A stretch of DNA of 6,740 bases from an uncultured Mogibacterium sp. (GTDB taxonomy: Bacteria; Bacillota_A; Clostridia; Peptostreptococcales; Anaerovoracaceae): NCBI RefSeq assembly GCF_938039775.1, contig NZ_CALHTQ010000221.1:1-6740 (forward strand), in the 5' to 3' direction. The notes beneath the pieces are model-generated. The model was not told the DNA's origin and searched no databases. It saw only the letters and a program-made list of their open reading frames with translations. Of the stretch, positions 2,370 through 6,590 are shown in pieces (the stretch's first letter is position 1; every line of letters starts with the position of its first letter). Position numbers and translations under genes: made by a program.

Positions 2370-3116
2370 ATGCAGCAGTACTTCATATACGGCAGCCCAA
2401 GTGCTGAAACTATTGAGATAACAGATAAGGACACCATCAAGCACATGTTTCAGGTTATGAGACTTAGTGCGGGAGATGAGGTTGTTCTCGTATTTCCAGA
2501 TGGTATAAAGAGACGTGCGGAAGTTGTAGATGCCGAGAGCAGAACTATGCGCATCATCGAGATGCTAGAAGATAATGTTGAGCTACCAGTTAATGTGACT
2601 GTAGCTTGTGGATTTCCTAAGGGCGATAAGTTTGCGACTATCGCTCAGAAGTCAACCGAACTAGGGGCAACAGAAATTTGCGGATTTCCAGCGGATAGAT
2701 CAATAGTGAAATGGGACGATAAGAAGTTAGCTAAGTTGGCAGAAAAGCTTGAGAAGGTAGTTCAGGGCGCTGCCGAGCAGAGTAAGCGCAATATCGTTCC
2801 GAGCATAAATCTTGTCGCTGATAAGAAGAGTTTTATAAAGAGCTTCAACGAGTATGACAAGGTCTTCGTTGCATACGAGGAAGCGGCGAAGGATGGGGAA
2901 AAATCTGTTCTCGCCAATGCTCTTTCAGAAGTATCAGCTGGAGATAAGCTACTTTTTATCTTCGGACCAGAAGGCGGAATCACAGATAAGGAAATCGACG
3001 ATTTTACTCAGGCTGGGGCTGTCTGTACAGGGCTTGGACCACGTATTATGCGAGCTGAAACGGCACCTATGTATGCCCTTTCTGCAGTGAGTTATGCGCT
3101 AGAACTCAGTAAATAG
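2370..3116 (+). CDS. rsmE: 16S rRNA (uracil-1498-N3)-methyltransferase RsmE
   Basis: A 248-residue enzyme of the SPOUT/RsmE family, which transfers a methyl group from S-adenosylmethionine to N3 of U1498 in helix 44 of 16S rRNA on the 30S subunit. Length matches E. coli RsmE (about 243). The N-terminal part (about 1-70) is the PUA-like RNA-binding domain. The rest is the knotted methyltransferase, with family blocks KGDKFATIAQKSTELGATEI (84-103), AAEQSKR (134-140), IFGPEGGITDKE (197-208) and the knot/SAM motif LGPRIMRAETAPMYA (222-236). No key block is missing. The start is firm: AAAGGAG (2358-2364) lies 5 nt before the ATG. In many Firmicutes rsmE sits with prmA and dnaJ; neither is here. 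I see no promoter with good spacing in front of it, so it may be cotranscribed with the membrane-protein gene. A weaker A/T hairpin rather than a strong GC terminator follows it. Confidence 0.96.
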   Translation: MQQYFIYGSPSAETIEITDKDTIKHMFQVMRLSAGDEVVLVFPDGIKRRAEVVDAESRTMRIIEMLEDNVELPVNVTVACGFPKGDKFATIAQKSTELGATEICGFPADRSIVKWDDKKLAKLAEKLEKVVQGAAEQSKRNIVPSINLVADKKSFIKSFNEYDKVFVAYEEAAKDGEKSVLANALSEVSAGDKLLFIFGPEGGITDKEIDDFTQAGAVCTGLGPRIMRAETAPMYALSAVSYALELSK

Positions 3117-3121
3117 AATCA

Positions 3122-3142
3122 CTGTAGATACGGCCTGTAGAT
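3122..3142. repeat. Short direct repeat CTGTAGAT x2
   Basis: Exact copies of CTGTAGAT at 3122-3129 and 3135-3142, 13 bp apart, directly behind the rsmE stop. No further copies were seen in the gap. Meaning unknown; possibly chance. Confidence 0.4.
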
Positions 3143-3153
3143 CGGTTATTATG

Positions 3154-3186
3154 TATTAAAATGTTTTTTTGAAAAAAATTTTAATA
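3154..3186. promoter_or_regulatory. A/T-only hairpin and probable UP-element tract
   Basis: TATTAAAAT (3154-3162) pairs with ATTTTAATA (3178-3186). Inside, after one unpaired G (3163), T7 (3164-3170) faces A7 (3172-3178), giving an almost pure A:T hairpin. It could be a weak terminator for rsmE, although no U-tract follows the stem. It also covers roughly -40 to -60 of the promoter at 3193-3220, where A/T tracts act as UP elements binding the RNA polymerase alpha subunit. I favour the UP-element reading. Confidence 0.5.
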
Positions 3187-3192
3187 GACACC

Positions 3193-3220
3193 TAGACAAT
3201 CTTTCAGAGTGTGCTAAAAT
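3193..3220 (+). promoter_or_regulatory. Sigma-A promoter of the carB leader, extended -10
   Basis: TAGACA (3193-3198) matches TTGACA in 5 of 6 positions. A 16-bp spacer leads to TAAAAT (3215-3220), 5 of 6 to TATAAT, with TG at 3212-3213 forming an extended -10. The expected start site is about 3226-3228, giving a leader of about 178 nt before carB. It lies downstream of rsmE and upstream of the attenuator, which indicates that carB is transcribed on its own. Confidence 0.72.
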
Positions 3221-3240
3221 GCTTAAGGTTTAGATATAGT

Positions 3241-3292
3241 GACTCGTAGAAAGAGGTATAGAGATGAAGAAGCGAATGTTTCGCGACTCGTA
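3241..3292 (+). repeat. GACTCGTA direct repeat in the carB leader
   Basis: GACTCGTA occurs at 3241-3248, just before the leader ribosome binding site, and again at 3285-3292, inside the leader ORF. The core GACTC of each copy is complementary to GAGTC (3352-3356) in the right arm of the terminator. Either copy could in principle compete with the terminator stem, or the repeat could be a protein site. Role unproven. Confidence 0.45.
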
Positions 3293-3317
3293 TCTTGAAT
3301 ATAGTAACGTAGATTAA
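3264..3317 (+). CDS. Putative 17-residue leader peptide of the carB attenuator
   Basis: A short ORF encoding MKKRMFRDSYLEYSNVD. It has a good ribosome binding site, AGAAAGAGG (3248-3256), 7 nt before the ATG, and lies 36-38 nt into the predicted transcript. Its TAA stop (3315-3317) overlaps the first two bases of the terminator stem (3316-3321). A ribosome at that stop would cover most of the stem's left arm and block the hairpin. The peptide is not rich in one amino acid (two Arg, two Lys, two Tyr, two Asp), so classical starvation control by repeated codons is not obvious; the two Arg codons (CGA, CGC) are worth noting because carbamoyl phosphate also feeds arginine synthesis. Codons 3-7 contain the small hairpin GCGAA-TGT-TTCGC (3272-3284). 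The peptide itself probably has no function; the act of translation would be the signal. The ORF is inferred from position and ribosome binding site, not from homology. Confidence 0.6.
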   Translation: MKKRMFRDSYLEYSNVD

Positions 3318-3364
3318 GACTTCGACATTGGATTTTTTATTCCAGTGATCGGAGTCTTTTTTTT
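3316..3364 (+). terminator. Intrinsic terminator/attenuator upstream of carB
   Basis: The left arm (3316-3332) pairs with the right arm (3341-3358): AAGACT with AGTCTT, then four pairs including one G-U, one bulged A (3348), then seven pairs including one G-U. The loop is TTTTTTAT (3333-3340). The stem runs straight into T8 (3357-3364). This is a textbook intrinsic terminator. It lies 3' of a good promoter and 40 bp before the carB start, in a position to control carB instead of ending rsmE. The six-T run in the loop is a plausible UTP-sensitive pause site just before the hairpin is complete. Confidence 0.88.
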
Positions 3365-3404
3365 AAAATTTCTGGAGAATATGAAAGCAGGAAAGGTGAG
3401 TAAA

Positions 3405-6400
3405 ATGGCAAAAAGAAGTGACATCAAGAAGATTCTAGTTATCGGTTCAGGACCAATCGTAATCGGTCAGGCGGCAGAGTTTGACTATGCTGGAACACAG
3501 GCATGTATCGCCCTTAGGGAAGAGGGATATGAAGTAGTGCTTTGTAACTCCAATCCTGCGACTATCATGACTGATACCTCAATGGCAGATAAGGTGTACA
3601 TGGAGCCACTTACACTCGAGTACCTAGCGAGAATCATCAGATATGAGAGACCTGATGCGATTCTTCCAGGTATCGGCGGACAGACTGGACTTAACCTAGC
3701 AATGCAGCTTGAGAAGAAGGGAGTACTCAAGGAGTGCCGTGCTGAACTACTTGGAACTAAGAGCTATAGCATCGAGCGTGCAGAGGATAGAGAGCTTTTT
3801 AAGGAGCTTTGCGAAGAACTCGGTGAGCCAGTAATTCAGTCTGACATTGCAAATAGCGAGGAGCACGGACTCGAGATTGCAAAAGAAATCGGCTTCCCGG
3901 TAGTTCTCCGTCCAGCATTTACCCTAGGCGGTACAGGTGGGGGATTTGCATACGATGAAGAGGAATTTAAGGAGCTCATCAAACGTGCTCTTTCCATCTC
4001 GCCAACACATCAGGTTCTGATTGAGAAGAGTATCAAAGGCTTCAAGGAAATCGAGTATGAGGTAATGAGAGATGGTGATGACACAGCGATTGCCATCTGC
4101 AACATGGAGAACCTTGATCCAGTTGGAGTCCACACAGGTGACTCCATAGTAATCTGCCCAACTCAGACAGTAAGCGATGAAGACTGCGCAATGCTCAAAG
4201 CAAGTGCGCTCAAAATCATCCGTGCGCTTGAAATTGAAGGTGGATGCAACGTGCAGTTTGCGCTAAATCCAAACTCGTCCGAATACTATCTAATCGAAGT
4301 AAATCCAAGAGTTTCGCGTTCATCCGCACTCGCGTCGAAGGCGAGTGGCTATCCAATCGCTAGAATTACAGCGAAGATTGCAGTCGGCATGACTCTAGAT
4401 GAGATTGAGATAATTGACCAGCCTGCATCAGTAGAGCCAGTTGTTGATTATATTGTGAGCAAGGTGCCAAGATTCCCGTTTGATAAGTTCGCAGATGCAG
4501 ATAATAAGCTCGGTACACAGATGAAGGCTACTGGCGAAGTTATGAGCATCGGTATGAATCTCGAAGAGAGCATGCTTAAGGCGGTTCGCTCGTTAGAGAT
4601 AGGTGTATCCCACATCTATATGGATAAGTTCGACACTTGGGATATTGACGAGATGAAGTCATATATCGTTGAAGGTCGCGACGACAGGATGTTTGCCATA
4701 GCGGAGCTACTGCGTAGAGGTGTGAGCAAGGAAGAAATATGCAAGCTAACAGATATAGCAGATTATTTCATAGAGATGTTTGAGAATATCGTCGCTATCG
4801 AAAATGAGTTAAGGGCGAACAAAAACGATGTCGCTAGACTCAGAATTGCTAAGCAGCATGGATTCTCAGACGCTGAGATTGCAAGACTTTGGGAAGTAAC
4901 TGAGCAGCAGGTGTGGAAGCTGCGTGAGGCAGTAGAGTTATTCCCTGCATACAACATGATTGACTCGTGCACGGCATCAAAGGATGCGTATGTGCCATAC
5001 TTCTACTCGACATTTGAAGGAAGTGAGACCACGAATACTGTGGATTCAGGCAAGAAGAAAGTCGTAGTACTCGGGTCAGGTCCAATCAGAATCGGACAGG
5101 GTGTAGAGTTCGACTACTCGACAGTACAAGCTGTAAAAACTCTGCGTGATCAGGGCTGCGAAGCAATCATTATCAACAACAATCCAGAGACAGTATCGAC
5201 AGACTACACGACAGCAGACAAGCTATACTTCGAGCCACTTTGCATCGAAGACGTTATGAATATACTTAGGCTCGAGAAGCCAGACGGTGTAATAGTTTCG
5301 CTCGGAGGGCAGACAGCGGTTAACCTGGCAAATGCTCTCGATGAGAGAGGTGTAAATATCATTGGAACAGACTGCGCTGCAATCAACACTGCCGAGGATA
5401 GAGACGAGTTCGATAAGTTGCTTCAGAAACTAGGAATCGACAAGCCTGAAGGAAGGGCTGTTACAGATATAGACGAGGGCTGTGCGGTTGCTAGAGAAAT
5501 CGGCTATCCGGTACTCGTCAGACCAAGTTTCGTTCTCGGAGGTAGAGCGATGAGAATTGTCGGAGATGAGGAACAGCTCAGACAGTACCTGAGAACAGCT
5601 GTTGAAATCGACGAAGACAAGCCAGTTCTCGTCGACCACTATATCCGTGGTAAGGAGATAGAGGTTGATGCAATTTGCGATGGCACAGACGTATTTATCC
5701 CAGGCATCATGGAGCTCGTTGAGCGTACAGGCGTTCACTCTGGGGACTCGATTAGTATTTATCCACCATGCTCCATCTCTGAGAAGGTAAAGGAGACAAT
5801 CAGGGAGTATACTGAGAAGCTTGGGCTAGGAATAGGCATTCGCGGTCTATTCAATATCCAGTTTATCGTCGATGCTTCTGAAAATGTATATATAATCGAG
5901 GTAAATCCAAGATCCTCGAGAACCGTGCCGTTCCTATCCAAAGCTACTGGATACAATCTCGCAGACATCGCATCCAAGGTAATGCTCGGCATCAGCCTAG
6001 AGGAGCAGGGATTCAAGGGATTAAATCCGCTCGAGAAGAAGAGATGGTACGTAAAGGTGCCGGCATTCTCATTTGCAAAGCTATCAGGAATGGATATAAG
6101 ACTATCGCCTGAGATGAAATCTACTGGCGAAGCCATCGGGTATGACGACGATATGATGCGTGCTTTTTACAAGGCTATGCAGGCAGCAGGTATGAGAATG
6201 CAGAATTACGGAACGGTATTTGCATCGATTAATGACGAATCTAAGGAGGATGCACTGCCACTAATCAGAGGATTCTACGACCTAGGATTCAACATTGAGG
6301 CGACAGAGGGTACGGCGCAGTTCCTTAAGAATAATGGCGTAAAGACCAGAAGTTTCAAGCATACTGATAACAGTCTAGAAGCGGTAATGGATGAATTTAG

Positions 6401-6590
6401 ACAGGGCTTCGTTACTTACGTTATTAACATCGGAGATATTAGGTCCGTAGATGCGAATTCCATGGGTAGCCGCATTAGGAGGTGTGCAGCTGAGAACAAC
6501 GTAACGACACTCACCTCACTAGATACTGTGAGAGTTCTTCTAAATGCTCTAGGTGACATAACATTTAAGGTGTCCACAATCGACGCATAG
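3405..6590 (+). CDS. carB: Carbamoyl-phosphate synthase large subunit
   Basis: A 1061-residue, full-length CarB (the usual length is about 1060-1075). With CarA it makes carbamoyl phosphate from bicarbonate, glutamine-derived ammonia and two ATP, for pyrimidine and arginine synthesis. Order: carboxyphosphate ATP-grasp half (about 1-400; R129, R169, E215 and [15 protein letters not shown] at 298-312), oligomerisation region (about 400-550), carbamoyl-phosphate half (about 550-930; [20 protein letters not shown] at 553-572, [12 protein letters not shown] at 832-843) and an MGS-like allosteric domain (about 930-1061; ATEGTA at 966-971, YVIN at 1005-1008). Both ATP-grasp halves look intact. The first Met of the canonical sequence ([18 protein letters not shown]) is at 3405, with AAGGTGA (3393-3399) 5 nt upstream. 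An in-frame ATG at 3381 has a GGAG only 3 nt away, and a GTG at 3345 lies inside the terminator; both are less likely. There is no glutaminase domain and no adjacent carA. Expression is probably controlled by the leader attenuator directly upstream. Confidence 0.97.
   Translation: [1061 protein letters not shown]

Follow-up and report, generated by a model that had tools for sequence, protein, structure and literature searches.

A putative translation-coupled attenuator in front of carB in Mogibacterium

Introduction

What controls carB in Mogibacterium? Attenuation by PyrR is the rule in Firmicutes. The window analysed here, a 6,740-nt stretch of DNA from an uncultured member of the genus, carries carB behind a leader in which a 17-codon ORF ends on an intrinsic terminator, and an initial annotation had read this arrangement as attenuation by a ribosome coupled to RNA polymerase. 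We put the chance that the carB leader is a translation-coupled transcription attenuator at slightly better than even (a probability of roughly 0.55); on the best reading of the sequence, the switch would be of the pyrBI/pyrE kind, in place of PyrR.

Results

The window and its relatives

The window encodes an HTH protein, a DUF2207 protein, RsmE, CarB and the start of one more gene. Its RsmE shares 95% identity with a protein labelled as uncultured Mogibacterium, and its carB is 90% identical to that of M. timidum. A presumed 16S signature matched 2 of 301 genomes and pointed to the window's family (349 genomes); the family of the best carB match, G367 (43 genomes), was discarded as a different one. 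Genome contigs searched with the window carB yielded at least 80 loci of 67–71% identity, viral contigs yielded no relatives of the window, and a class sample of 391 genomes contained no carB above 72% identity and no RsmE at E 1e-50. The window RsmE (2370-3116) shares 60–64% identity with Streptococcus RsmE, as against 31–37% with the RsmE of ten sampled Clostridia, and its gene was perhaps acquired by transfer.

Anatomy of the carB leader

Table 1. Features of the carB leader and of carB in the window
Feature	Position	Strand	Remarks
Promoter-like site of the carB leader (TAGACA, 16 nt, TGn-TAAAAT)	3193..3220	+	Extended −10 kept in G656, G655 and G658
Shine-Dalgarno (SD) sequence AGAGGT of the leader ORF	3252..3257	+	Identical in 4/4 leaders, 6 nt before the ATG; spacer variable
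Leader ORF, 17 codons plus TAA, peptide MKKRMFRDSYLEYSNVD	3264..3317	+	Start and frame kept in 4/4, stop at the same place in 3/4
Small hairpin GCGAA/UUCGC within the leader ORF	3272..3284	+	5 pairs in 4/4, one with a one-sided change
Invariant 24 nt (GATTAA to GGATTT): stop codon, terminator left arm, into loop	3312..3335	+	Four leaders aligned
Intrinsic terminator hairpin, 17 pairs, one bulge, −22.8 kcal/mol	3316..3358	+	Folding; overlaps the leader-ORF stop codon
Terminator U tail	3359..3364	+	T run kept in 4/4 leaders
carB, carbamoyl-phosphate synthase large subunit, controlled gene	3405..6590	+	NF003671, 1443.6 bits versus cut-off 599

Re-read on the sequence, all parts of the leader lie where the initial annotation had placed them (Table 1). 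The ORF opens with an ATG at 3264 and closes with TAA at 3315-3317, the terminator arms span 3316-3332 and 3341-3358 around a loop at 3333-3340 with six U at 3333-3338, and the carB ATG (3405) follows 40 bp beyond the terminator. Only 2 of 200 shuffles folded better than the stretch 3220-3404 (z −2.43); a simple terminator scan of the window did not list the carB-leader terminator. The small hairpin within the ORF is a possible pause hairpin. As for the promoter, which had been called a good one, the site is present and its extended −10 is conserved, but the match by itself is at chance level (17 promoter-like matches in the window versus 14.3 ± 3.8 in shuffles), so that the case for it lies in its conservation.

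How unusual is an ORF in this position? An SD-bearing ATG ORF ending at the terminator arose in 3.3% of shuffles of the window leader, or in 7.5% when GTG and TTG starts were admitted. The same layout was seen at 0 of 21 leader-positioned terminators of G656 (452 kb, the carB leader not being among these 21) and at 1 of 13 leader-like terminators of G400. Taken alone, the window sequence is only suggestive; conservation in all four aligned leaders is what makes the observation solid.

Conservation within the genus

Mogibacterium, as delimited by the tool used, comprises four genomes (G655, G656, G657 and G658). Three have carB orthologues (G656 96%, G655 93%, G658 90%); G657 instead carries a different type of carB, paired with carA and lacking a mini-ORF leader. 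The extended −10, SD, ATG, frame and terminator are common to all four leaders (window, G656, G655 and G658), in each of which the stop codon sits over the terminator hairpin. Start, SD and the overlap of stop and terminator are thus kept in relatives, as had been anticipated, with a departure in G658, the most divergent of them, where a 1-nt deletion shifts the frame so that the ORF crosses the left arm and its stop codon falls within the terminator loop instead. Three positions of the right arm vary, each being either G or A and facing a U, so the pairs are kept; two-sided pair changes do not occur. Across the four species, left arm and stop codon (3312-3335) are invariant and the right arm drifts, a pattern that occlusion by a ribosome does not require. 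The loop reads UUUUUU in the window and G656, UUUAUUAUU in G655 and UUUUUAAUU in G658, i.e., it is U-rich in 4/4 leaders and carries a six-U run in 2/4. The idea of the U6 run (3333-3338) as a conserved pause was dropped, since the run is kept in the window and G656 only and the conserved part is the U-rich character of the loop.

The initial annotation had expected the ORF to drift at synonymous sites. Instead, the changes are mostly non-synonymous (4 non-synonymous and 0 synonymous between the window and G655, 5 and 1 between the window and G658), and the peptides differ (MKKRMFRESYLEYSNVD in G656, MERRMFRDLYLEYNNVD in G655, MQRRVFRDLYFEYYDTIKTSTLDF in G658; Table 1 for the window). A working small peptide was rejected on this ground, and translation or the RNA itself, rather than the peptide, seems to matter. 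It also bears on the improbable case that a small-protein gene, or a small RNA with its own terminator, stands before carB by accident. The unit does have its own promoter, SD and terminator and is single-copy in G656, G655 and G658 (each has one match at E <=5e-27, the next match lying at 0.03, with no second copy of the leader in these genomes), but its codon changes are unlike those of a protein under selection, and it lies directly before carB in three relatives, while the gene upstream of it, rsmE in the window, is a different one in G656 and G658.

Could the peptide act through its codons? Amino-acid attenuation, with a ribosome stalling at Arg or Tyr codons of the leader peptide as in trp and his leaders, strikes us as quite unlikely. 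R4, R7, Y10 and Y13 and their codons are identical in the four Mogibacterium peptides; however, there is no single-codon run in them, the peptides of the three other lineages described below have no common amino acid pattern, and no argF partner was seen, given a single carbamoyltransferase per genome. Moreover, stop and terminator overlap here, whereas the terminators of amino-acid attenuators lie >20 bp from the ORF according to an excerpt of PMC4824070.

Among the points against a translation-coupled attenuator, the left arm is conserved beyond what that model needs, and G657 does not have the arrangement. The former could instead reflect some trans-acting factor that is not PyrR, or a different fold of the RNA, acting through the invariant left arm, with the ORF incidental or secondary. 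We regard this as unlikely, even though the 24-nt block that begins at the stop codon and reaches the loop is the same in all four species, against a variable right arm and ORF. In the best partial-transcript folds of the window and G656, the 5′ end (AGGUUU-GAU) pairs with AUU-AAGACUU, but this pairing is absent from the best folds of G655 and G658, and an antiterminator from the leader 5′ end, being the best fold in 2/4 leaders, was put aside as a weak candidate. Nor does any Rfam family match window positions 3117-3404 at E up to 1, by which a T-box or riboswitch was also discarded. A factor or fold would, in addition, leave unexplained the kept SD and ATG and the recurrence of unrelated ORFs in other lineages.

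Pyrimidine genes and PyrR

Is carB a gene of pyrimidine synthesis in these bacteria? In G655, G656 and G658 (two near-complete genomes and one draft), no carA scored above the family cut-off; weak matches of 45–51 bits fell, in G656, on a gene read by eye as GMP synthase. The three genomes showed carB without a recognisable carA although the pyrimidine pathway is present, and the carB product is probably an ammonia-using carbamoyl-phosphate synthase. The remaining pathway of G656 lies in one operon, pyrC-K-D-F-E-B-I, in which pyrB is followed by pyrI, the aspartate carbamoyltransferase regulatory chain (L238 876-2233). Each of the three genomes has one carbamoyltransferase match, that of G656 being named PyrB, so that carbamoyl phosphate goes to pyrimidines. 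The placing of carB with this pathway is upheld thereby, and control by arginine was rejected on the same grounds.

The initial annotation had set its proposal against PyrR, and neither the gene nor its site turned up. Among 28 PF00156 matches in G655, G656 and G658 (10, 10 and 8), 11 named by NCBIfam and the rest by eye, no pyrR was recognised. In G656, NCBIfam gave names to seven, PyrR not being among them, and the other three, judged by eye, are PRPP synthetase, PurF and one match below the cut-off; G655 and G658 have two each of about PyrR length, named hypoxanthine and adenine phosphoribosyltransferase, and their remaining matches were paired by eye with those of G656.

PyrR-type loops do occur in the family. 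A covariance model built from 8 of 20 stretches upstream of the gene preceding carB found such a loop in 10 of the 20 pyrC-carB operon leaders (E <0.002; L326 is clearly new) and in three more of 60 carB upstream stretches (E <0.001), and RF00515 recovered nine leaders chosen by eye at E 2e-4 to 0.9, all below its gathering score. An ATG ORF was present in none of seven PyrR-type leaders (7 of the 10, under one ORF test), one of which has a TTG ORF. Applied to the four Mogibacterium leaders, RF00515 and the relatives' loop model gave nothing credible (best 13.9 bits, E 5.8, in L156, elsewhere in the leader), and the same holds for the mini-ORF leaders of the family. In the lineages of L180, L181, L287 and L168, the PyrR site is missing as well; the gene search covered G655, G656 and G658. 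Control by PyrR, which with UMP would bind the leader RNA and favour the terminator, is in our estimation very improbable, notwithstanding the loops before the pyrC-carB operons of relatives and CAGAGAGGT at the G658 SD, which resembles a PyrR loop by eye: the leaders hold no credible match to either model, and pyrR was not recognised in the three genomes.

No PyrR element was found in the fetched Mogibacterium pyr operon regions either. The pyrC operon leader has a conserved promoter-like stretch in the three Mogibacterium genomes, and no terminator was noticed there. This stretch (L238 ~6413-6562, minus strand, L239 and L240) reads TTTTAACA...TCACATAG...AAAAATGTTATACT and is possibly a promoter with an operator.

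carB leaders across the family

With a carB match in 222 genomes of the family, 88 upstream stretches and the window, 89 in all, were compared. They represent most full-length matches among those listed, down to 1456 bits, plus two of ~57% identity. Left out were matches truncated at the end of a contig, almost every match of the 50% type, and L164 and L171, which have no upstream DNA. carA motifs are found in 17 of the 89 stretches and are absent directly upstream of carB in the other 72; many of these follow a gene identified as pyrC, by eye in all but G656.

A gap of at least 150 nt precedes carB in 10 of the 89 stretches, by a crude gene caller whose antisense frames may hide long leaders in small gaps; seven further small-gap stretches were read, and no such ORF was seen. 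Eight of the ten long leaders (window, L155-L157, L180, L181, L168 and L287) contain an SD-bearing ATG ORF at a terminator, with stops lying −9 to +70 nt from where a terminator arm begins, and two, L288 and L298, have no ATG ORF. The eight belong to four lineages with unrelated peptides (MKLCEIIYNNNV in L180 and L181, MTMTLINTNIASHVSSIRISHFQFNS in L287), L168 having a 36-codon frame that runs through the terminator. A systematic pass over the 72 stretches without carA motifs detected terminator-like hairpins within 300 nt in 21, and an ATG ORF with SD at the hairpin in 10 of those: the eight already counted plus L264 and L269, which were discounted because in both the frame is the 3′ end of the gene upstream. 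The hairpin of L287, missed by an earlier pass, was first recognised by eye. Shuffling produced an ATG ORF in 3–12% of cases per mini-ORF leader; as the tests were designed once the first cases were known, these frequencies describe rather than prove.

Predicted effect of a ribosome on the stop codon

The proposed occlusion of the hairpin by a terminating ribosome fits the geometry of the window. Assuming that a ribosome at the stop codon has a footprint of 15 nt, counted from the P-site codon's first base, it would hide 12 nt of the left arm and weaken the hairpin from −22.8 to −4.2 kcal/mol, the remaining 5-bp stem being detached from the U tract; in G658, no stem would be left. The other lineages fare differently, with 8 nt hidden in L181 (residual −12.9 of −26.7, detached from the U tract) and 1 nt in L287 (residual −11.8 of −13.8). 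In view of these residual stems, plain occlusion is firm for Mogibacterium only, and L287 is marginal.

As in attenuators of the pyrBI/pyrE type, a terminator lies between promoter and pyrimidine gene, and an SD-bearing ORF ends at or over it in 4/4 leaders. By default, transcripts would end at the terminator, short of carB. A slow RNA polymerase, most probably one short of UTP, would allow a ribosome on the mini-ORF, which we think is probably translated, to catch up and arrive at the stop codon before polymerase has left the U-rich loop or right arm. With ~12 nt of the left arm covered, only the 5-bp stem off the U tract would form, the terminator would be blocked, and polymerase would continue into carB. 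That a ribosome blocks termination in the cell is what we infer from this layout. Low UTP is the most likely signal, judging only by the pathway and by analogy; that the U6 run is not conserved counts against it.

Transcription-translation coupling

Would a ribosome keep pace with polymerase in this phylum? Bacillota are classed under runaway transcription in an excerpt of PMC13323073, and this phylum-wide label counts against a coupled switch. A proxy for runaway transcription is short stop-to-terminator spacing (PMC7858274, excerpt); in E. coli, a terminator several bp past a stop codon is almost fully repressed, with no repression beyond 27 nt (PMC4824070, excerpt). Using one crude finder throughout, we obtained median spacings of 33.5 nt in G656 (5 of 38 below 12 nt), 26 in G400 (15 of 62), 15 in E. 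coli K-12 (13 of 32), 6 in SPBc2 (11 of 15) and 8 in SPO1 (12 of 21). The spacings of G656 stand apart from those of E. coli (p 7e-5) and SPBc2 (p 7e-4), but are not distinguishable from those of G400 (p 0.18). Gene-end terminators in the G656 and G400 samples (L329-L368) are farther from stops than those of E. coli and the two Bacillus phages. The carB leader, with a spacing of −2 nt, is an outlier, 1 of 38 being lower in G656. The wide spacing in G656 shows no runaway signature and makes coupling in Mogibacterium plausible, as an uncalibrated hint, given that phage genes stand proxy for B. subtilis and that this measure does not tell E. coli and SPBc2 apart (p 0.13).

Discussion

How does this leader compare with known systems? 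In the E. coli pyrE attenuator, at the end of rph, a stop codon lies shortly 5′ of the pyrimidine-gene terminator; its ORF is a full gene, whereas that of Mogibacterium is a mini-ORF with a promoter of its own. With E. coli pyrBI (pyrL), the carB leader shares a leader ORF and a terminator before a pyrimidine gene, where a close ribosome prevents termination (PMC5021804 and PMC4824070, in excerpt). The pyrL ORF, however, measures 135 bp and contains the terminator, while the window ORF has 17 codons and a stop overlapping the first hairpin bases; G658 and L168, with ORFs extending into or through the hairpin, are nearer to pyrL. UTP-sensitive pausing is established for pyrBI and may operate in Mogibacterium by likeness of design, with no sequence relation claimed. 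Control of pyrBI also requires tight coupling across the leader peptide (PMC5021804, excerpt).

Closer in phylogeny, ribosome-mediated transcription attenuation in Gram-positive bacteria is exemplified by bmrCD of B. subtilis (PMC4191407, excerpt), and in Firmicutes by the histidine leaders of the hisS type (PMC2965389, excerpt). The former responds to antibiotics and the latter read histidine codons; the carB leader has neither feature and precedes a pyrimidine gene. PyrR attenuation (RF00515) serves the same pathway, likewise by transcription attenuation, and is present before pyrC-carB in relatives; in Mogibacterium, by contrast, neither PyrR gene nor loop was found, and translation is the proposed sensor. 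A full-text literature search, in which few subscription journals were covered and which is therefore weak evidence of novelty, returned no translation-coupled pyrimidine attenuator in Firmicutes.

An excerpt of PMC2965389 describes Firmicutes leader peptides, and single genes that have gone from one sensing system to another, so the replacement of one sensor by another is already known. Tentatively, and with more doubt than confidence, one may go further and suppose that solo carB genes have repeatedly swapped PyrR control for a sensor of the race between ribosome and polymerase, built at least four times from unrelated mini-ORFs, and that Mogibacterium, unlike Bacillus, enabled this by staying coupled.

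If the attenuator is real, it would place pyrBI-like control in Clostridia, where PyrR is expected, and related genomes would offer a series of PyrR-type versus mini-ORF leaders at the same gene. As the switch would fail if polymerase always outran the ribosome, coupling in some Bacillota would thereby become testable.
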